Assembly: GCF_007744675.1 (NCBI RefSeq)
Contig: NZ_CP036269.1
Coordinates: forward strand, 6,065,046 to 6,129,045
Direction of reading: 5' to 3'
DNA: 64,000 nt
Source: Gimesia alba
GTDB lineage: Bacteria; Planctomycetota; Planctomycetia; Planctomycetales; Planctomycetaceae
The notes under the pieces are model-generated. The model did no database searches. It was not told the origin of the DNA and worked only from the letters and a program-made list of their open reading frames with translations. Below are positions 38,718 to 49,437 of this stretch, one piece after another. The number at the start of each line of letters is the position of its first letter. Position 1 is the stretch's first letter. Both the position numbers and the translations under genes were made by a program.

Positions 38718-38951
38718 ATTCGGTCAATACGATTCAGCCCCGTCTCTCACGCCCGTTTCCGCTGTTTCTCCCCTTGAAAACCGCTGAAATCACAGACTTT
38801 ACGATTTTTTCTCAATTTCCCTGTAACAGATTTCCGCGGTTCTCGCTGAGTGAGGTAGGCAGGCATGTGACCTGCAACACAATTGGGAACGGCCAGATCA
38901 AACCGTATGTCGTTCACCTCATTCTGGTACGAGAGAAAAGGATATAGAACA

Positions 38952-40337
38952 ATGAAACGCTTCACACTCTGCATGGTAATCATGACAATGGTGTTCGGCA
39001 CGGTTTCTCTGGACGCTTACGCCAGAGGAAAGGGCCGCTCGTCAGGTCGCTCTGGACGCTCAAGTATGTCTCGCTCAAGTCATTCCAGCGGTGCACGTCG
39101 GAGTTTCTCCAGCCGTTCCACACAACGCTATCAAGGCCGGTCAACAAGCTCGCGGTCGCCGCAACGGTTTCAAAGCCGGTCAACAAGCTCGCGATCACCA
39201 CAACGATTTCAGAGTCGTTCGACAAGTTCGCGATCACCACAACGTACAACAAGTAAGTTCCCGACCACTCGCGATCACCGCGGCGGTAAATTAACCACTG
39301 TCCGCGATCATCGCGGCACAAGCACGCGAAAGCGGGTTGTCAATTCGGCTCCGAAACCCAGACCAACCATGAAACCGATTGGCAATACGCGGCCCCAGAC
39401 GAAACCATTCACAGGGATGCGTCCTCGTCCGGGCAATGGTGCACCCAAACCACGGCCCGGTATCAAACCCATCGATCCAGGCATCGGTAACGGCAGACCA
39501 GGATTCGGCGGCATTCGTCCTCGTCCAGGCAATGGTGCACCCAAACCACGGCCCGGTATCAAACCCATCGATCCAGGTATCGGTAACGGCAGACCAGGAT
39601 TAGGCGGCATTCGTCCTCGTCCGGGGAACGGTGCTCCCAAACCACGACCCGGTATCAAACCCATCGATCCAGGTATCGGTAACGGAAGACCAGGATTGGG
39701 CGGCATTCGTCCTCGTCCCGGGAATGGTGCTCCCAAACCACGGCCCAAACCACAGCCTCCCGTTGGCAACGGACCTCCGAAGCCACGGCCACCAAAGCCA
39801 AATCATCCGAAACCGAACAACCCCAAACCGGGAAAACCAGGACACGGTCATCATGGCGGTGGTCATCACGGCGGACACCACGGTCACGGTCATCATGGAC
39901 ACCACGGCAAACCCTGGTTCCACGCTCGACCCAACTACTGCTGGTGGTGGTTTAACTACTGCACGCCGCTGCAGAACTGCCGACCGGTTGACATCCAGTA
40001 CTGTAACTACATCTACCCGACGTGTGACTATGTAACTCCGGCTGGTGTGGTTGTGGAAGATGCCCGCTGGTACCTGGGAATGAAAGGGATGATGCTGCCC
40101 GGTAAGGGAGTCGGCGTGGAATCCGTCGAACCAGACTCTCCTGCCGCAGTAGCCGGACTGGCTCCCGGAATGGTGATCACCAAGTGCAACGGAGTCGCGA
40201 TTACCGACAACGATGTCTTAGCCCAGGTCATCGCCGAATCCGGCGGCGTACTGGAAATGGAACTCTACGAAAAACTGGACGGCCCGTTGATGGGAACCAC
40301 GGTCGAAATGATCCGGCTCCCCGCCGCCAGCTTCTAA
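38952..40337 (+). CDS. Exported low-complexity (SR/GP/HG-rich) protein with C-terminal PDZ domain
   Basis: A 461-residue protein. Residues 1-26 are a signal peptide (TLCMVIMTMVFGTVSLDAYA). The first third is Ser/Arg-rich, with repeats of the type SRSTSSRSPQRFQ. Then come tandem 32-residue units containing RPRPGNGAPKPRPGIKPIDP, a Pro/Lys stretch (PKPNHPKPNNPKPGKPG) and a His/Gly segment (HGGGHHGGHHGHGHHG) that could bind metal. An aromatic Cys-containing block follows (YCWWWFNYCTPLQNC). The last ~90 residues form a PDZ domain (GVGVESVEPDSPAAVAGLAPG). It may be a surface or envelope scaffold. Start ATG 38952 follows AAAGGAT. A strong terminator ends the unit. Confidence 0.8.
   Translation: MKRFTLCMVIMTMVFGTVSLDAYARGKGRSSGRSGRSSMSRSSHSSGARRSFSSRSTQRYQGRSTSSRSPQRFQSRSTSSRSPQRFQSRSTSSRSPQRTTSKFPTTRDHRGGKLTTVRDHRGTSTRKRVVNSAPKPRPTMKPIGNTRPQTKPFTGMRPRPGNGAPKPRPGIKPIDPGIGNGRPGFGGIRPRPGNGAPKPRPGIKPIDPGIGNGRPGLGGIRPRPGNGAPKPRPGIKPIDPGIGNGRPGLGGIRPRPGNGAPKPRPKPQPPVGNGPPKPRPPKPNHPKPNNPKPGKPGHGHHGGGHHGGHHGHGHHGHHGKPWFHARPNYCWWWFNYCTPLQNCRPVDIQYCNYIYPTCDYVTPAGVVVEDARWYLGMKGMMLPGKGVGVESVEPDSPAAVAGLAPGMVITKCNGVAITDNDVLAQVIAESGGVLEMELYEKLDGPLMGTTVEMIRLPAASF
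39421..39750 (+). repeat. 96-bp tandem repeat coding 32-residue units
   Basis: Units begin GTCCTCGTCC at 39421, 39517, 39613 and 39709, exactly 96 bases apart. There are three full copies and a partial fourth. They are almost identical at DNA level, with silent changes mostly, which indicates recent duplication or homogenisation. Copy number may vary between strains. Confidence 0.95.
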
Positions 40338-41326: not shown

Positions 41327-41557
41327 CTACACTACACTACACAGCACAGGATTCGCCGGAAACCGCTCCGGCGTTCGCATCACCAGTTTCAGATTCTGCG
41401 AAAACGGCAGCGAAACCTCATCAAAGGCAAACAGCGTCGTCGCCTGCATCTCATCAAAATACCCGCCGTGTGCATCACCACCGTGTTCTTCAGCCGAGAT
41501 CACACCAGCCAACCCGGCCCAGACAATCCCCGCCACCAGCAACAGCCCCCAGCGCAT
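41327..41557 (-). pseudogene. N-terminal fragment of a secreted glycosidase-like gene
   Basis: A 76-residue frame begins with a signal peptide (GLLLVAGIVWAGLAGVISA) at ATG 41557, with a GGGGGC ribosome site. It continues LFAFDEVSLPFSQNLKLVMRTPERFPANPVL. That pattern is like the N-terminus of planctomycete secreted glycosidase-like proteins of 500 or more residues. The frame stops at once after PVLCSVV, within repeats of the pentamer CTACA (plus strand 41326-41342), and nothing resembling the missing catalytic part lies between here and the GNAT gene. I infer a truncated remnant; a genuine small secreted protein is the alternative. Confidence 0.55.
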
Positions 41558-41670
41558 CACACTGCCCCCCGGAAGAAAGAAAGATTAATGAGATGCGTTT
41601 CAGTGTAGAAGATTGAACCGGGGAAGCAATGAAATTCGTGTGAGAATACCATACTCATATAAAATGGAAT

Positions 41671-41686
41671 TACCCTATCGAGGGTA
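41671..41686 (-). terminator. Hairpin after the dtcC-like gene
   Basis: TACCCT and AGGGTA form a 6-bp perfect stem with an ATCG loop 10 bases after the dtcC-like stop codon. An AT-rich stretch but no clean T-run follows on the minus strand. It may be a weak terminator. Confidence 0.45.
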
Positions 41687-41695
41687 GATAGTGTC

Positions 41696-42916
41696 TCATT
41701 TGGCAAGTACTGATAATGCAAAATAATAAAGAAATTTACTACTAGTATAAGCTGCATAATTTTGATAATCATCAGATTTTTCTGAGTCACCAAAATCACA
41801 AATTGACTTGAAGGCCATTGCAGTAGGACGTGGACCAGGACAAATTAGTGATGCCAAAAACAGTCCATAAATCTCCATTTCCACCCCCACTAACTTTCTG
41901 TCATGGGCTTTGATAGCATCTATAATATTTCGATTTTCAATCACTGCAGCACCAGAAGCAATCGGCCCAATTAACGCGCTTAAAGGCGTAGCAGCCCTTA
42001 CACCATCCCAGTCGAGTTCAATCTGCTTTAAGATATGATCGTTTGTTAAAAATGCTTGCATTTCCTCTAATATTTTGGGCGAAAGCCTAATTGCGGTTGG
42101 TGCTGGTTCAAAAATTGAAGATTCGTTTTTTGAATTATCTATTCCGAGTTTAATCTTCCCGCTACCATAATCCCAAGACTGATCTGCGATTAGGATATCG
42201 CCAAAATTACCTCTTACACCGGCTGCAATTCCTGTCATAGCAATATACTTTGGTTTAAAGTGCTGACATATTTTCATTGCAAGTCCAGTAGTAGCAGTCA
42301 TCCCAGCTTGAATAGCAGAAGCAGCAATTACAGAGATAGTTTTGCCACAACTCTTAAATTCTCCCCGATAATATAAAGTATCATCACCTGAAATAGATGT
42401 CTGCTGCCAATTGCCTTCAAGCATAAGTACTTGGTCGAGTTCTGGTGATTGCAATGCAGTAACAATAGCCAGATCCGTATGATAATCTTTCTGTTTTTCA
42501 ATATTATTTACATTTGCGACATGGATTAAACCGTTAGTCAGTTGTTTTACCCATAGATCAGAACTTGTATCATAATACATTAAGATCCAAGTGAAATCTT
42601 CAAATTGTTTTTTGTATTCATTCAATTTTTCTTCATGAGCAGTCAGGCCGATTACATGAAATGGTATCTTAAATTCTTTTCTAGTTTTCAAATGTTGTAA
42701 CAATTTTATTCCTGCATCTTCACGCACAGAGTCTCCAGGACGCATTGGAAGTTTCACATCCAAAACCATTAAATCATATTGATTTGATTTTAACTTTTGC
42801 CCTGCATCATAAACTGTTTCAACAATCGTTAAATCAACATCAACAGTTTCTTTACACACATCCGCTACTTGCGTTGCTTTTACGTTATCGTCTTCTACTA
42901 TGATTACTTTTAACAA
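41696..42916 (-). CDS. dtcC: Receiver domain fused to purine nucleoside phosphorylase domain, DtcC-like (Detocs effector)
   Basis: A 406-residue fusion. The N-terminal receiver domain (1-130) has acidic residues Glu8-Asp10 and the phosphoacceptor Asp53 in DLMVLDVKLP. Its beta-4 threonine is in VIGLTAHEEK, but the usual beta-5 lysine is replaced (MYYDTSSD). The C-terminal PNP/MTAN-like domain (about 148-406) has IAMTGIAAGVRG, GPIASGAAVIEN, GVEMEIYGLFLAS and KSICDFGD, the residues that bind the nucleoside and phosphate. In Detocs, DtcC of this architecture is phosphorylated on phage infection and cleaves ATP to adenine. It starts at TTG 42916, with AGGAG 7 bases upstream and 10 bases after dtcB. 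The gene looks intact. Confidence 0.85.
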   Translation of the reverse strand: MLKVIIVEDDNVKATQVADVCKETVDVDLTIVETVYDAGQKLKSNQYDLMVLDVKLPMRPGDSVREDAGIKLLQHLKTRKEFKIPFHVIGLTAHEEKLNEYKKQFEDFTWILMYYDTSSDLWVKQLTNGLIHVANVNNIEKQKDYHTDLAIVTALQSPELDQVLMLEGNWQQTSISGDDTLYYRGEFKSCGKTISVIAASAIQAGMTATTGLAMKICQHFKPKYIAMTGIAAGVRGNFGDILIADQSWDYGSGKIKLGIDNSKNESSIFEPAPTAIRLSPKILEEMQAFLTNDHILKQIELDWDGVRAATPLSALIGPIASGAAVIENRNIIDAIKAHDRKLVGVEMEIYGLFLASLICPGPRPTAMAFKSICDFGDSEKSDDYQNYAAYTSSKFLYYFALSVLAK

Positions 42917-42926
42917 AGAGAATCTC

Positions 42927-43118
42927 CTAGGTGATCAATTTTTCAATCACTTTAGTTAGAGCAGTTTTCCAATCAGATTGTGCCGGATGATAATAGACAG
43001 CATCTCGATATACACTTGGAAAGTCATGTTTAAGTTCGGCTTTGAGCTGTTCTAAAGTTTTTTTATCATCAGAATCACCAAATGTCTCATATTGAGTTAC
43101 AATGATTACTGGAATTAC
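42927..43118 (-). pseudogene. dtcB: dtcB-like receiver gene, 3' fragment (split by IS)
   Basis: A 63-codon remnant of the stand-alone receiver: VIPVIIVTQYETFGDSDDKK at its start covers strand beta-4 with the Thr, and it ends WKTALTKVIEKLIT. The frame joins exactly to the 5' fragment at 44057-44317 when the insertion sequence and one CTAG copy are removed, giving a 150-residue protein. It has no start codon of its own, so it is not expected to be translated. The stop codon lies 10 bases before the dtcC-like start. Confidence 0.9.
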
Positions 43119-44059
43119 TAGAGGTTGTCTCATAACGTCAAAAAAAGTGAACGGTTTGGCGCGTCTTTTGCATGAAGTGTTCTCCTGAAAGGAGAATTTC
43201 TTATGTATATGACGCTGGTCTGGTGGCCCAAACGAAAACGGGTTTCCACAAAAACAGCGTCCAGGACGGAACGCCCGGTCGTTTTGACCGATAAACAATG
43301 GTCTTTAGTCGCAAAACTGTTTCCCTGGACTCCCCCTTCCAAAAAGGGAGGACGTCCAAAAGCCCATCCACGAGATTGCCTGGAAGGCATTCTCTGGATT
43401 TTGGTGACAGGAGCACGATGGAAAGATTTACCAAGAGAGTATCCCTCAAAAGCGACGTGCCATCGACGTTTCCAGCAATGGACGATCGAAGGGCGGCTCT
43501 TATCTGCCTGGCAAATCATCTTGGAACGAATGGATGATGCTGGCCAGATTGATTTCTCGGAAACCTTTGCTGATGGCACTTTTGCCTCGGCAAAAAAAGG
43601 GGTAGAAGAGTTGGCCCGACTCGTCGTGGCAAAGGCACAAAGGTCATGATTTTTGTCGATCGTCACGGGACACCTGTGGCGATCGACACAGAATCGGCCC
43701 GTCGTAGCGAAGTCAAGCTGATCGAACCGCTGCTTGAAAAAATCACATTGCAAAATCGACAACCCGAGCGACTTGTTTATGACAAAGCCGCCGATTCGGA
43801 CTCGTTGCGCAAACGGCTGATGGAAAAGAATATCGATCTGATCTGCCCGCATCGAAAATCGAGAGTCAAACCGCCGACGCAAGATGGTCGAAAGCTTCCA
43901 CGCTTCAAACGACGTTGGATTGTGGAACGCAGTATTGCCTGGCTCCACAACTATCGTCGCATTGTCACGCGCTGGGAATATCACGATTACCTCTACGAAA
44001 GCTTTGTAATTCTTGGGTGTTTATTTACACTATTAAAAAGGTTTTGAGATGCCCTCTAG
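43118..44059 (+). mobile_element. IS5-family insertion sequence (934 bp) with CTAG target duplication
   Basis: The element spans 43122-44055. Terminal inverted repeats are AGGTTGTCTCATAAC on the left and, as reverse complement, AGGGCATCTCAAAAC on the right (11 of 15 matching). CTAG flanks both sides (43118-43121, 44056-44059). The transposase is split over two overlapping frames joined by a slippery A7 tract, as in the IS427-type group of IS5. It sits inside the dtcB-like gene in opposite orientation. Because the target is palindromic, the duplication could also be read as 2 or 3 bases. Confidence 0.92.
43203..44047 (+). CDS. IS5-family transposase, two frames (43203-43649 and 43646-44047) joined by -1 frameshift
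   Basis: The first frame (148 residues) starts at ATG 43203 after AGGAG and contains the DUF4096-like part: LTDKQWSLVAKLFP, KGGRPKAHPRDCLEGILWIL and GARWKDLP. The second frame (133 residues) has the rest of the DDE domain: RLVYDKAADSDSLRKRL, ICPHRKSR, and the E-containing RWIVERSIAWLHNYRRIV. At 43592-43598 lies AAAAAAA followed by GGGG. A -1 slip there yields GRRVGPTRRGKGTKVMIFVD, the normal family sequence across the join. The first catalytic Asp is in FADGTFA. The element therefore looks functional, moving the IS by cut-and-paste. Confidence 0.9.
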
Positions 44060-44317
44060 TAATCGACGATCAATTTCTTCTAAAATATCTCTGCCAGCAT
44101 ATGCTCTAGTTCGCCCACCTTTATCTTTCGGTGTCACATCAAATGTTGGCATGCTCATATCAAGAAGAACAAGGTCGGGAGTAGACCCTAGTATTTCTTT
44201 TAGTCCACTCTGATAAGATCTACGCTCTGTGATCTCTGAGCTAGGTAATAACTCTTTAACAAAATTGACTAATTGTTTTCGTTTATTTTCATCATCCTCA
44301 ATTATTACAGTTAGCAT
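44033..44317 (-). pseudogene. dtcB: dtcB-like receiver gene, 5' fragment (split by IS)
   Basis: The first 87 codons (44057-44317) encode the start of a stand-alone receiver domain. VIIEDDENKRKQLV has the acidic pocket, and Asp53 in LVLLDMSMPTFD is the phosphoacceptor. The frame then enters the IS and ends after seven foreign codons (EGISKPF), losing beta-4 and beta-5. In Detocs, DtcB is a lone receiver that soaks up phosphate leaking from the kinase and so prevents self-toxicity. The ATG at 44317 overlaps the kinase stop by 7 bases, so it was translationally coupled. Confidence 0.9.
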
Positions 44318-47253
44318 GGTATTACTTCTTCTGCTGTAAATACGAACGTAACACTAAATTGCCGCGGCTCAGGTTTCACTATAAGCTCAATTTCGATATC
44401 TAACATATTCAAATTAATTTGAATTAGTTTACCTAGTTTGTAATATCCACTATCCCCTTCACTTCGCACTTCTTGTCCTGATACACTGGACTTTACTCTT
44501 TCAGAAAGCTGGTTTGACAGGTCACGCAATTCTTCTAAGTCAATGTTTTGAGGCAAAGAATTTTCAATACTGATTGCTGCTCTCTCATCTTTTTCAAATA
44601 TTTTTATTGATACATTCTCAGCACCATCTAAAGAGTATTTTACTGCATTTTCTAAAGGGATATAAATCATATCCACGAAATAAGTAAATGTTTCACCTGG
44701 AAGACGCCATTCCTTTAATTTTTCAACTACCAGTTGCTGAGTTTTATCAGGTGAAGTTCTTCGAAGCATTTCAATACTTGTTTTAACCACATGGTGAACT
44801 TCGTAATCTGGCATTGTGGCATCTCCGACAGTCTCAAACCATCCGGCAATTAAATCTAACTCCACTTGAATGTCAGTACGACATTTTCCTACACAGGCAC
44901 TAAACTCAGATTGATTTAGCCTTGGTAACAAATAAATTATGTCTTGTTCTAACTCATTTAATGCATTGATTAATTTTGAACATAGTTCGTTACGAATTAC
45001 ATTTCGAACTTCTTTGAGAACAACTTTCGACCGAAGATTCAATTCCTCGATACACATATCTATAAAGTCACCTACAAATTCGATACTTCCATATTTTAAA
45101 TATAAAGAGGCTAGTTGATAATCATCATACTCAAAGTCAAAAAGCCCATCCGGAGTTTCTTCGTTTCTAATCTGGATCCAACTCCTTTTTACATTATCAA
45201 TGATCTCATCAATTGATTTCGAAAACGAACCTAGTCTTTCATCAATTTTTTCATATCCAATGATCTTTTGAAATCTTGAAGCCCAGTATTGATTGGAATG
45301 ATATTTACCAGTTGAAGATTCAAGAGTGGTAATAATTTGCCTTTCTTCGAAAACTCGACGCATCTGACCAGCCAAAGTCCCATGCCTTATTCGTAAGCTT
45401 AAATATGAATCTAGTCCATACTCATTACTGGATATATATCGATATCTGATTTCATGAAATAGGATATTAAAGAGTTCAACTGCGGCGTCCAATTGAATTA
45501 TATCTCTTTTGTTAATCACTCTTTTTGTATTAATATCAAATTCAAAAACAGAGTATCTAATACTTTCATCTAATCCATACCATTGCCGATACCTATCAAA
45601 CCCTTCATAAAACGCACGATCTAATGATTTTTTTATACCAACCGTATCGACATATACCTTACTAGAATCTATTTGATGAACTGCATCTCTTACCGCTCTT
45701 GCTTGTGTTAAACGATGAATTTCATTCGAATACTCTTCGGCATTAGAAGAATCAATCCTCAGAAGATGTTGGCATAGCTTAATCCTTTCTTCTTCTAGAT
45801 CATCAGATGATTCGTATGCTATTGAAGAATCTAGAATTTCTGTTACACATACGTATCGAAGAAAATAAACAAACCATGATTGCGAATATTCTTCACATTG
45901 AGATAAAAGCTCACTTGGTCTCGATGCCCCTTTATCTGAAAGAAATTTGTCCAACAGAATAAACAGTTTTTTATTGTTATTTGGTAATGAATTTTCTTTA
46001 TAATAAATCGAGTTTAATACTGCCCAACCAAAATGTGTCATTTTTTCGTAACCACCGAGGATGTCATGCTGAACTATCAAATCCCATACGGGAACTGACA
46101 ATAGAAATTCTCGGCGAGTAAAATAAACACTAAGTACTAGCTTCAGACATTTATTGAGTTGCTCTGTAGCAAGGAAAGCTTTAAACAATCCTTCAATTGC
46201 ATGACATTCGAATATTTGATTTCCTGAAGACTTTTCCTTCAAATCCTCAAATACCAAAACTGCATCAGAATACTCTCCATTTCTAATTCTGCCTACCCCT
46301 TGATAAGCTAGTTGGCGCTCACTTGGTACATCTAAATCAGTACATTGAGAATCACTATTCAACAAGTAATTGAATAATTTCAAAGTTACTGTTTCACCAA
46401 ATATTCCTCTAAATGATTCGTAATAACATTTAGATTCGCTAGAGTTTTTAAATACATCGAGAAATCGAGGAGTTGGAACAGATGTATTAATCTCTCTCAA
46501 AAGAGGAAGGTTAAGATTATCATGAATTGTTTGGTGACGTCTTACAAAGGCATATAACTGTGGACCAAGTGTTGTATTCCAAAAAATATAAGCGGCTTTT
46601 TCAAGACGGAGCAAACTATCATCGGCACTGGGTGTTCTCGCGAATACATGATAAATATTTTCTATTATTTCACTCAAATAAGTTTCTTTATCTCCTTCTC
46701 TTTTAGGTTGTGCACCTAAATGAATCAGAGATTTGCAATACAGTTCGTAGAACTCAAGTTGTATTGGGTTCTCTGCTAAAAGTATGTATGAATCTTCCAG
46801 TGCTTTTTTGTAATCCCCACGAGTATAAGTATCTATTACTCCATTAACTTTACTTGAATATTCAATATTCTCAGATTGAATTAACCCAGAACAAGCCGTG
46901 GATATCATGTTAATACGAGACTCATCAAATCCCGTACCAAGACACTTGAGAGCTTGATCTACAAGTTTTCTATTTTTCTCTAAATTGAATACTGTTAAAT
47001 ACTCTAATACTTTGACAAATAATAGAAATCGATCTACAACAGCGTAGCAACTTTCAATATTTAGAATTTGAATCAGATTATGTTCTGTGAACTTCCGAAA
47101 GGAAAAATAACAAGATTTGAACCAAAGATAAGCCACGTTTGCAAACAAGTCGCCTTCGTGGATGTAGTCACTAAAAAATTCATGCATTGAATCAATATAA
47201 GCAGCAATTGAAAACTCATGCTCTGCTCTTCTACTAGAAAATTCTAACAACAT
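44311..47253 (-). CDS. dtcA: Sensor histidine kinase with TPR-like sensor region, DtcA-like (Detocs), main fragment
   Basis: A 980-residue frame. The N-terminal ~600 residues are helical and repeat-like (TPR-type, for example YKKALEDSYILLAENPIQLEFYE), suited to sensing a phage factor. The last ~150 residues form a HATPase_c domain: N-box YIPLENAVKYSLDG and a G-box-like SEGDSGYYKLGKLIQIN. I see no textbook H-box; His residues in YEVHHVVKTSIEML are candidates. The open frame continues upstream of ATG 47253 to about 47391, and a further in-register N-terminal part appears in another frame (47372-47821), so the gene is probably frameshifted. The call as DtcA rests on domain order and on the dtcB- and dtcC-like genes downstream. 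Confidence 0.72.
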   Translation of the reverse strand: MLLEFSSRRAEHEFSIAAYIDSMHEFFSDYIHEGDLFANVAYLWFKSCYFSFRKFTEHNLIQILNIESCYAVVDRFLLFVKVLEYLTVFNLEKNRKLVDQALKCLGTGFDESRINMISTACSGLIQSENIEYSSKVNGVIDTYTRGDYKKALEDSYILLAENPIQLEFYELYCKSLIHLGAQPKREGDKETYLSEIIENIYHVFARTPSADDSLLRLEKAAYIFWNTTLGPQLYAFVRRHQTIHDNLNLPLLREINTSVPTPRFLDVFKNSSESKCYYESFRGIFGETVTLKLFNYLLNSDSQCTDLDVPSERQLAYQGVGRIRNGEYSDAVLVFEDLKEKSSGNQIFECHAIEGLFKAFLATEQLNKCLKLVLSVYFTRREFLLSVPVWDLIVQHDILGGYEKMTHFGWAVLNSIYYKENSLPNNNKKLFILLDKFLSDKGASRPSELLSQCEEYSQSWFVYFLRYVCVTEILDSSIAYESSDDLEEERIKLCQHLLRIDSSNAEEYSNEIHRLTQARAVRDAVHQIDSSKVYVDTVGIKKSLDRAFYEGFDRYRQWYGLDESIRYSVFEFDINTKRVINKRDIIQLDAAVELFNILFHEIRYRYISSNEYGLDSYLSLRIRHGTLAGQMRRVFEERQIITTLESSTGKYHSNQYWASRFQKIIGYEKIDERLGSFSKSIDEIIDNVKRSWIQIRNEETPDGLFDFEYDDYQLASLYLKYGSIEFVGDFIDMCIEELNLRSKVVLKEVRNVIRNELCSKLINALNELEQDIIYLLPRLNQSEFSACVGKCRTDIQVELDLIAGWFETVGDATMPDYEVHHVVKTSIEMLRRTSPDKTQQLVVEKLKEWRLPGETFTYFVDMIYIPLENAVKYSLDGAENVSIKIFEKDERAAISIENSLPQNIDLEELRDLSNQLSERVKSSVSGQEVRSEGDSGYYKLGKLIQINLNMLDIEIELIVKPEPRQFSVTFVFTAEEVIPC

Positions 47254-47371
47254 CTTCGCAAAATAATCATCAGTGGAATTTAATGCTGACTGAAGTTCTA
47301 CCCTATTACTTTTTATTCCACTATGTAATTCTGCTAATAGAATGGCCGATTCAGAAGCCCAAAGAGATGCC

Positions 47372-47821
47372 TTAAAGTTTTGTTTGATATTTTAGTAAAT
47401 TCTCAGCTAAGTTCAGGTCACCTGAAACTATTGCTACCTCAAATTGTTTTTTCTCTTGAAGAAAAGAGTTAATTTCATTCTGCCACACTTTTAGTCCTAT
47501 TGCAGTCCAAGTTAACTCATTCGACAAGCTTAGTGCATCATTTGTTGGTAGAACTGGAAGGAATTCATTTAAGTTAGAGGGAAAAGGAATACCATATAAT
47601 TTTTTACTAACATGTGGCAGTCGAGGGGCTCGTTTCAAAACATATGAAATGACCTGAGGAGATTCGCTTTTCAGATCTTCTGTATCAATATCCTTATTAG
47701 AAAAACCTTTAAGTAGCCCATCAATATATTGATGAGATTTGTTTTTCAGAGAATTAGTCTTGTTTTTATTTTTCGATTTCGTTCTTAACTTTCGAGTTTT
47801 ATTTTGTTTTCTCTTGCCCAT
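47372..47821 (-). pseudogene. dtcA: N-terminal fragment of the DtcA-like kinase, separated by a frameshift
   Basis: A 149-residue frame from ATG 47821. It starts very basic (GKRKQNKTRKLRTKSKNKNK) and ends EVAIVSGDLNLAENLLKYQTKL. The last part looks like the first helix pair of a TPR-like repeat. In the next frame, directly after the A4 tract (complement of 47390-47393), the sequence continues NIKQNFKASLWASESAILLA without a stop into the kinase gene. One extra base in the A-tract explains both. The alternatives are a genuinely separate small gene, or a sequencing error that makes the kinase look broken. Confidence 0.6.
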
Positions 47822-48094
47822 AAGATCTTTTAACTCGTAATAATAAGCGTTTTATTGTAATTACAGACTTTAAAGAGATGCAGAAATTAGTTTCTCTATA
47901 TTAGGTATAGATAAAATACCTAATATGAACAAAAGAATCCATCATTTAAATATTAAAGTACAAGCCCGCATATTACATTGAGTACTACTATTTTCATTTA
48001 TTCACAATTTTCAATTTAGATTACAAACGTTGCCTCAAGCCGTCTTATGAAAATTAGATTGAATATAGTCAGAATTTGCATCTAACATTAACTA
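47822..48094. other. AT-rich region upstream of the Detocs-like operon
   Basis: About 270 bases, with no gene on either strand. It contains the 11-bp palindrome listed separately and probably the promoter of the minus-strand operon. Confidence 0.5.
47898..47926 (-). promoter_or_regulatory. Perfect 11-bp inverted repeat upstream of the Detocs-like operon
   Basis: ATATTAGGTAT and ATACCTAATAT are separated by AGATAAA. On the minus strand TTGTTC and TATACC, 17 bases apart, make a weak candidate promoter that the palindrome overlaps. It could be an operator. The start codon of the first frame lies about 77 bases downstream. Confidence 0.45.
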
Positions 48095-48128
48095 TGAAAA
48101 AAAAGGCAGCCCCGAAGGACTGCCTTTC
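48095..48128 (-). terminator. Intrinsic terminator of glgC
   Basis: On the minus strand AAAGGCAG and CTGCCTTT form an 8-bp stem around TCCTTCGGGG, followed by eight Ts. It is 29 bases after the glgC stop. Confidence 0.95.
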
Positions 48129-48156
48129 TGAGTGTTCATATTTGATGATCGGTGTA

Positions 48157-49437
48157 TTACAGTTTCCACCCGTCTGCCAGCACAGTCCCTTTCGGTACGA
48201 CGATAATTCCGTCGCGGATCAGGACATCGCTGTGGTCGAAGTCCTGTTCGGTGTGGCCGTTGAGTTCGATGCGGACGTTTTTGCCGACCCGGCAGTTTTT
48301 ATCGACAATGGCCCCGTCGATATAAGCACCCTCATCGATGCCAAAGGGAGGCAGACCGTCATCCGCGGTTTCTTTACACTGGTCCTGATAAAAGTCGGCT
48401 CCCATCACGATTGAATTTTTAATCGTCACGTTCTTGCCGATACGGCAGCGCAGGCCGATCACGCTGTTTTCAATCACGGCTCCTTCATCAATTTCACAAC
48501 CATCGGCGATCAGACTGCGTTTGATGTTGGTGCCTTCGCAGCGCGTCGGTGGCAGGAAGCGGGGACGCGAATAGATGGGCGCCTTCTCGACGACAAAATC
48601 GAAGGGCGGATCGGGATGCGTCAGCGCCAGGTTCGCATCAAAGAACGAACGGATCGTCCCGATGTCTTCCCAGTAGCCATCGAACAGATGCGCGTGGACC
48701 TTGTGCGTGCGAATCGACATCGGAAAGATTTCTTTACCGAAGTCTTCGTAATCGGTTTTCTTCAACAGATCCACCAGCAGATCGCGATTAAACAGGTAGA
48801 TGCCCATACTGGCCAGACAGTCGCGGCCCCGGCTTTCGATACCCTGCTGATCGATCCATTCCGACGGTGTGCGAACCATAGCCAGCTCTTCTTCTGTCTG
48901 TGGTTTTTCCAGGAAGCTTTCCACGCGTCCTGCATCGTTCACTTTCATAATGCCGAATGCGGAAGCCTGCTCGCTGGAGAGAGGCACCGTGGCGATCGTC
49001 ACATCGGCCTTCGAGTCGATGTGTGTCTGCAGCATTTCCAGATAATCCATGCGATAGAGCTGATCGCCGGATAGGATCAGAACGTAATCAATGTCCGACT
49101 GTTCGATGCAGCGGATATTTTTGCGGACCGCGTCAGCCGTCCCCTGATACCAGTCAGTCCCTTCCATCGTCTGCTGTGCGGCCAGAATTTCCACAAAGCC
49201 GCCACCAAAGGAATCGAACTTGTAGGTCTGGCGAATATGACGGTGCAGACTGACCGAGTTGAACTGCGTGATCAAGTAAATACGACTCAGTTCGCTATTA
49301 ATACAGTTCGAAATCGGAATATCAATCAACCGATATTTTCCCGCCAGAGGAACCGCGGGTTTAGAACGAAACTGTGTAAGCGGAAACAGACGTGTGCCCT
49401 TTCCTCCCCCCAGGATGAGGCTGACGACATTTTTCAT
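48157..49437 (-). CDS. glgC: Glucose-1-phosphate adenylyltransferase
   Basis: A 426-residue ADP-glucose pyrophosphorylase making ADP-glucose for glycogen synthesis. The N-terminus has LILGGGKGTRLFPLTQFRSKP, the nucleotide site. PISNCINSELSRIYLITQFN and LILSGDQLYRMDYLEM (the GDxLYxMDY motif) are typical. ASMGIYLFNRDLL and EDIGTIRSFFDANLAL mark the sugar-phosphate site. The C-terminal left-handed beta-helix (about 300-426: IKRSLIADGCEIDEGAVIEN and similar) mediates allostery and tetramer formation. AGGT precedes ATG 49437. It is a single-gene unit beside the AT-rich island. Confidence 0.96.
   Translation of the reverse strand: MKNVVSLILGGGKGTRLFPLTQFRSKPAVPLAGKYRLIDIPISNCINSELSRIYLITQFNSVSLHRHIRQTYKFDSFGGGFVEILAAQQTMEGTDWYQGTADAVRKNIRCIEQSDIDYVLILSGDQLYRMDYLEMLQTHIDSKADVTIATVPLSSEQASAFGIMKVNDAGRVESFLEKPQTEEELAMVRTPSEWIDQQGIESRGRDCLASMGIYLFNRDLLVDLLKKTDYEDFGKEIFPMSIRTHKVHAHLFDGYWEDIGTIRSFFDANLALTHPDPPFDFVVEKAPIYSRPRFLPPTRCEGTNIKRSLIADGCEIDEGAVIENSVIGLRCRIGKNVTIKNSIVMGADFYQDQCKETADDGLPPFGIDEGAYIDGAIVDKNCRVGKNVRIELNGHTEQDFDHSDVLIRDGIIVVPKGTVLADGWKL

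Follow-up and report, generated by a model that had tools for sequence, protein, structure and literature searches.

An apparently decayed Detocs-type operon with an intact effector gene in the planctomycete Gimesia alba

Introduction

The Detocs defence system was described as being composed of a kinase, a buffer receiver and an effector response regulator with a PNP effector (PMC11728103, PMC11249213), and its PNP effector was described to cleave ATP (PMC11249213). The family PDC-M60 was named among the PADLOC candidates that are composed of the same proteins as systems known under other names, and Detocs was not mentioned in the main text of that paper (PMC11811056). A literature search of limited extent found no paper that joined planctomycetes, Gimesia, phage and defence systems. 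PDC-M60 is presumably Detocs, an equation suggested by the architecture.

The locus described here lies in a 64,000-nucleotide stretch of the Gimesia alba genome (the window); the genome is one contig of 7.77 Mb with a completeness of 99.97%. The initial annotation had read the locus as three genes of a working Detocs-like system in a transferred defence island. The same gene order, domain make-up, effector type and patchy distribution were found as in Detocs (DtcA-DtcB-DtcC with a PNP effector), whereas dtcA of the window was found to be frameshifted and dtcB to be split by an insertion sequence (IS), and the production of neither protein can be assumed. The PADLOC profiles PDC-M60A, PDC-M60B and PDC-M60C were found to match all the pieces of dtcA, dtcB and dtcC, respectively, with A and B each matched as two pieces and not as single proteins. 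The operon of another planctomycete of the same bacterial family (genome G092, L031:4353-9519) was found to contain the A-B-C order and a DtcC that is 42% identical, but unlike the window it contained three open genes of 1157, 158 and 411 aa. The MTA/SAH nucleosidase MTAN was found to have the nucleosidase fold and the aligned motifs in common with DtcC, whereas MTAN is a stand-alone metabolic enzyme and DtcC contained an N-terminal receiver and would be expected to act on ATP.

Results

Organisation of the locus

Homologues of dtcA, dtcB and dtcC were found in the Detocs order on the minus strand, with a GNAT gene on one side and glgC on the other. The kinase, the lone receiver and the receiver-effector were found to be co-directional neighbours, with the IS inside the second gene. 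The features were as follows.

41644 to 48089, no strand: putatively acquired block, AT-rich, showing no blastn homology to the 14 sister-species loci; bounded by a conserved region downstream of the GNAT gene and by glgC
41696 to 42916, minus strand: dtcC, receiver and nucleosidase, 406 aa; PDC-M60C E 1.1e-112; Pfam Response_reg and PNP_UDP_1
42927 to 43120, minus strand: 3′ piece of dtcB, second receiver half to the stop; PDC-M60B E 6e-15, profile positions 88-153
43121 to 44056, plus strand: IS element of 936 bp in dtcB, with imperfect terminal inverted repeats and TA on both sides
43203 to 43649, plus strand: transposase ORF A of the IS; Pfam DUF4096 (IS4/5 family) E 1.4e-23
43646 to 44047, plus strand: transposase ORF B of the IS; Pfam DDE_Tnp_1 E 3.7e-12
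44057 to 44317, minus strand: 5′ piece of dtcB, first 87 receiver codons, with Asp53; PDC-M60B E 1.1e-23
44311 to 47391, minus strand: body of dtcA, helical TPR-like part and HATPase kinase core, 1026 codons from stop to stop; PDC-M60A E 2.7e-92
47362 to 47416, minus strand: frameshift region of dtcA, net -2 nt, equivalent to +1, near 47390
47372 to 47821, minus strand: 5′ piece of dtcA, 149-codon ORF with a wrong-frame stop; PDC-M60A E 3e-4 (residues 86-144); aligns with intact DtcA N-termini

The Pfam search found the receiver and PNP domains in DtcC, the transposase and, below the cut-off, a receiver in the 5′ piece of dtcB, whereas no named domain was found in the kinase. The ORFs, PADLOC and Pfam bore out the gene order, strand, domain composition and outer coordinates (41696-47821) of the initial annotation, of which the end at 47821 had silently included the severed N-terminal piece of dtcA. 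Its description as three genes held for the content of kinase, receiver and receiver-PNP protein but not for the gene structure, as dtcA was found in two frames and dtcB in two pieces. The "large kinase" was found as a 149-codon ORF and a 1026-codon frame in different frames, and the "lone receiver" as pieces at 44057-44317 and 42927-43120 with the IS between them.

The effector gene dtcC

No stop was found to interrupt the 406 codons of dtcC, which begin at a TTG preceded by AGGAG. The D9, D53, E159, M347, E348 and D374 residues of DtcC were invariant in 64 aligned sequences, and D53, E159, E348 and D374 were present in the DtcC of the window. The predicted model (pLDDT 96.1) contained a receiver and a nucleosidase domain, and the 50 matches listed by Foldseek in the PDB were all MTA/SAH nucleosidases or futalosine hydrolase. 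In the profile alignment, D374 and M347-E348 were found to fall on the matching MTAN motifs and E159 to adjoin a gap; the positions of E159, E348 and D374 are taken to be those of Glu12, Glu174 and Asp197 of MTAN. The PDB titles among the matches name Glu12 and Asp197 mutants of MTAN. Sequence and model thus point to a receiver joined to a PNP-type nucleosidase with a fold like that of MTA/SAH nucleosidases and with the catalytic residues kept, which agrees with the PNP domain that had been proposed. ATP would be the substrate of DtcC because of what is known of the family. No match was found in the PDB sequence search with the single DtcC, and the NCBIfam search found generic receivers, MTAN and stray weak matches, all below the cut-off. 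The genome search found no second dtcC match.

The receiver gene dtcB and its insertion sequence

The dtcB gene was found to be split by the 936-bp IS after codon 87, so that the 5′ piece retained Asp53 without the second half of the receiver. The 5′ frame enters the IS for 7 codons followed by the presence of a stop (ORF 44033-44317). The gene contained 261 nt ahead of the IS and 453 nt in total when the TA duplication was counted once, and its halves were in phase. As this total makes whole codons including the stop, the insertion is the sole visible lesion of dtcB. Misassembly was considered as the cause of the IS placement and was rejected on the TA on both sides and the in-phase halves.

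The IS is presumably IS5/IS427-like. The 17 full copies in the genome (G000, L012-L028) were all found to contain no mismatches and to have TA on both sides, and two additional partial matches were found. Because no differences were found among the 17 copies, the IS appears to have been recently active and the insertion to be recent. Four terminator-like sites were found around the IS compared with 1.5 expected; the scan found no minus-strand promoter-like match around the IS, and such matches were not in excess over shuffles. The genome search with DtcB found the two pieces, the receiver of dtcC itself and three weak receivers (E of at least 7e-4).

The kinase gene dtcA

In intact relatives dtcA was found as one ORF, mostly of 1100-1220 codons, and both frames of the window were found to align to successive parts of intact DtcA. 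The kinase core was present and the gene was frameshifted near its 5′ end, so that DtcA, with its helical sensor part and HATPase core, was not encoded as one protein. The 149-aa ORF (47372-47821) was considered as a separate gene and rejected, as it aligns with DtcA N-termini. The spacing of two aligned columns, represented in the window by a D and a W, of which the W is well conserved and the D is not, was 19 residues or 57 nt in 66 of 68 relatives, which had been selected for dtcA as one long open frame; the other two contained 18 and 16 residues, and the window contained 55 nt. The simplest reading of this spacing would be a net loss of 2 nt. The longest base run at the site was four. The frameshift looks recent because dtcA carries no further stop.

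The residues R669-H670 (RIRHG motif), N915 and G982 of the kinase core were invariant in 53 aligned sequences and were kept in the window, where H670 is our guess for the phospho-acceptor of DtcA. The model of the dtcA body (pLDDT 87) was predominantly helical and ended in a HATPase-like C-terminal part. Histidine kinases made up most of the top Foldseek matches, at E values from 2e-4 to 1e-3 and covering a small part of the model; repeat proteins, e.g., Ski and Ctr9, ranked lower. The PDB sequence search with the single DtcA found one match at E 0.23 and that with the DtcA alignment found no match; a second dtcA match was not found in the genome search. The first ATG of the body was found at 47253, from which a truncated kinase of 980 aa with the whole kinase core could be made.

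Origin of the block

The block without the IS was found to contain 34.3% GC compared with 49.7% in the rest of the window, where the lowest value among 56 one-kb windows was 43.5%, and the GC profile thus confirmed that the region is clearly more AT-rich than its neighbours. In blastn against 14 sister-species loci, the left homology reached 41643 at most (11 of the 14 had a left-side match) and the right homology began at 48090-48179 in all 14. No DtcC match was found in any of the 16 other genomes searched within the genus. In the order, 10 of 170 genomes including its own were found to match at E 1e-3, of which three (G000, G092 and G144) were near full length; in the phylum, where four candidates were scored per listed genome, 2 of 392 sampled genomes matched at E 1e-40, its own being one of the two.

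In 13 of the 14 sister-species loci, one gene that looked PDZ-like by eye had a homologue within 0.9 kb of glgC, 29-64% identical to that of genome G030. This gene had no match in the window or in this genome; an empty genome search says little without a positive control, but the same query matched the 13 relatives. The operon thus replaced local genes or arrived alongside their loss. The AT-richness of the block and the other genes held by the slot in sister species support the horizontal acquisition of the operon. The comparison with related genomes thus upheld the acquisition part of the "transferred defence island"; the word island is too strong because the block contained only the Detocs-type operon and the IS. 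No integrase ORF was seen in the ORF list of the block, and no repeat of at least 10 nt was common to 41451-41800 and 47901-48300.

Two other observations were made around the slot. A sister species (G031, L058:4105-4304) was found to contain a second, diverged glgC 3′ end in the same slot, as though the glgC end were a site of integration. In a secreted-looking ORF of the window (38883-40337, plus strand), inspection by eye showed several nearly identical repeats, each about 30 residues long and rich in Pro, Gly and Arg, ahead of a PDZ-like end.

Related loci

The contig search with the single DtcC found no relative; it was repeated with the DtcC alignment, and 80 of 96 loci were kept. Among 95 loci examined, 77 contained a full receiver-nucleosidase DtcC in one frame, and 73 of these contained at least 3.6 kb upstream. 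Among these 73 comparable loci, dtcB was complete in 71, dtcA formed one ORF of 950 codons or more in 70 and both were found in 69, counts that are not independent, as some of the loci are identical or nearly so (L032/L082, L094/L095, L074/L118/L119, L121/L139 and L158/L159). Three of the four exceptions were L076 with a split dtcA, L092 with a frameshifted dtcA and L141, in which neither dtcA nor dtcB was found. Broken copies of both genes were found in none of the 73. In the fourth exception, a Cupriavidus draft (L086; 6500-7010), dtcB was frameshifted across frames and dtcA and dtcC were open; the loss of dtcB alone may be tolerated there, or the draft record may contain errors.

The PDC-M60 profiles were matched in the same order in the planctomycete loci L031 and L077 and in the Escherichia coli loci L072, L162, L173 and L175. 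In a comparison with the published E. coli yjcB-ssb Detocs island, neither yjcB nor ssb was found beside the operon in the four E. coli chromosomal loci that were inspected. A Detocs-type operon on a Klebsiella aerogenes plasmid (L176:2973-9380), outside the 73, was found to be IS-broken like that of the window, with only dtcA hit, by an IS3-family element, while the other two genes, dtcB and dtcC, are annotated as whole; the accessions of their products were those of a Klebsiella pneumoniae plasmid with a whole kinase ORF. Related operons were scattered over many phyla and also occurred on plasmids. A second nucleosidase-like domain (143-144 bits) was found upstream of the Detocs-type operon in L074 (139-909), L118 and L119 (both 1639-2409), and its gene in L074 was annotated as an HNH endonuclease.

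Discussion

The homology, the gene order, both lesions, the kept effector residues and the different slot genes of the sister species are best explained by a horizontally acquired Detocs-type operon that has since been inactivated, a reading that we hold with high confidence. The PDC-M60 matches, the gene order and the DtcC domains sustain the Detocs-type ancestry and the PNP-type effector that had been proposed. By descent the locus belongs to a known kind of system, of which it is, in our reading, an acquired and decayed member rather than a working one. ATP cleavage, phosphotransfer and the loss of function are what we infer for it. In an intact relative, the TPR-like kinase DtcA would detect infection, autophosphorylate and hand the phosphate to the receivers, DtcB would be a buffer soaking up stray phosphate, and the phosphorylated effector DtcC would cleave ATP via its nucleosidase domain, so that the phage would be stopped along with the cell. 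Owing to the frameshift in the kinase gene and the IS in the receiver gene, it is very probable that two of the three components are not produced whole. With the kinase cut near its N-terminus by the 2-nt shift and the buffer gene split, no competent kinase or buffer would be present, and DtcC should therefore be idle: any of the whole protein that may still be expressed downstream of the IS should stay unphosphorylated and silent.

The initial annotation had implied a defence system that works today, against which the frameshifted dtcA and the split dtcB stand. Such a system would need the lesions to be absent from most cells or to be bypassed by a truncated kinase or the loss of the IS, and is improbable: dtcC is intact, the dtcA body and both dtcB pieces contain no further stops and the kinase-core motifs are kept, but dtcB is split between Asp53 and the second receiver half, the dtcA N-terminus is out of frame and 69 of the 73 comparable loci keep both genes open. 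It is rather unlikely that the dtcA frameshift is a sequencing error and only dtcB is broken, leaving a kinase and an effector without a buffer, a potentially leaky state. The remaining dtcA is open over 1026 codons without a second lesion and L086 has a broken dtcB with open dtcA and dtcC, as such an error would allow; the net shift of 2 nt at a site with no base run above four and the single-contig, nearly complete genome speak against it, and a cell without the buffer should come to harm if DtcB is required in that role.

It is very unlikely that DtcA arises by programmed +1 frameshifting at CTT TAA, a site which we take to resemble the prfB frameshift site. The zero-frame stop lies directly after CTT and the +1 frame continues the protein, but the product would contain 18 residues where 66 of the 68 relatives contain 19 (one contained 18), none of the 73 comparable loci has a shift at the same place and no Shine-Dalgarno-like stimulator was seen upstream by eye. 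Receiver and MTA/SAH-nucleosidase-like domains occur in metabolism too, as a housekeeping phosphorelay with a nucleosidase output would have it; this reading is scarcely credible against the lack of a match in the other 16 genus genomes searched, the strong matches in only 2 of 392 sampled phylum genomes (its own being one), the related operons scattered across phyla and on plasmids, and a PADLOC candidate family of its own.

The inactivated operon thus carries a pair of lesions that suits the published idea of DtcB as a buffer, without proving it. If DtcB restrains a live kinase, its loss would be more easily tolerated after the loss of the kinase. The lesion pair may then record the logic of the circuit, in that the kinase was lost, the buffer became dispensable and the IS landed in dtcB harmlessly, with losses of dtcB beside a live kinase and effector being purged; we regard this as a doubtful though conceivable account. 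The window fits a loss of the buffer after that of the kinase, whereas L086 does not obviously do so, and the recency of both lesions says nothing on which came first. We make no general claim that the loss of dtcB always follows that of dtcA, as the lesions are too few and L086 speaks against it.

The annotation is corrected by these results, as domain content alone would list the genome as Detocs-positive when two of the three genes are broken. Detocs-type operons were found to be rare across the phylum, with matches in 2 of the 392 genomes sampled (that of the window included), and the locus adds a planctomycete case in a slot occupied by other genes in sister species. It represents a natural double knock-out with an intact effector, which raises the question of the order of decay in three-part immune circuits. 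If kinase-first decay is true, natural Detocs wrecks could test the role of DtcB as a phosphate buffer.
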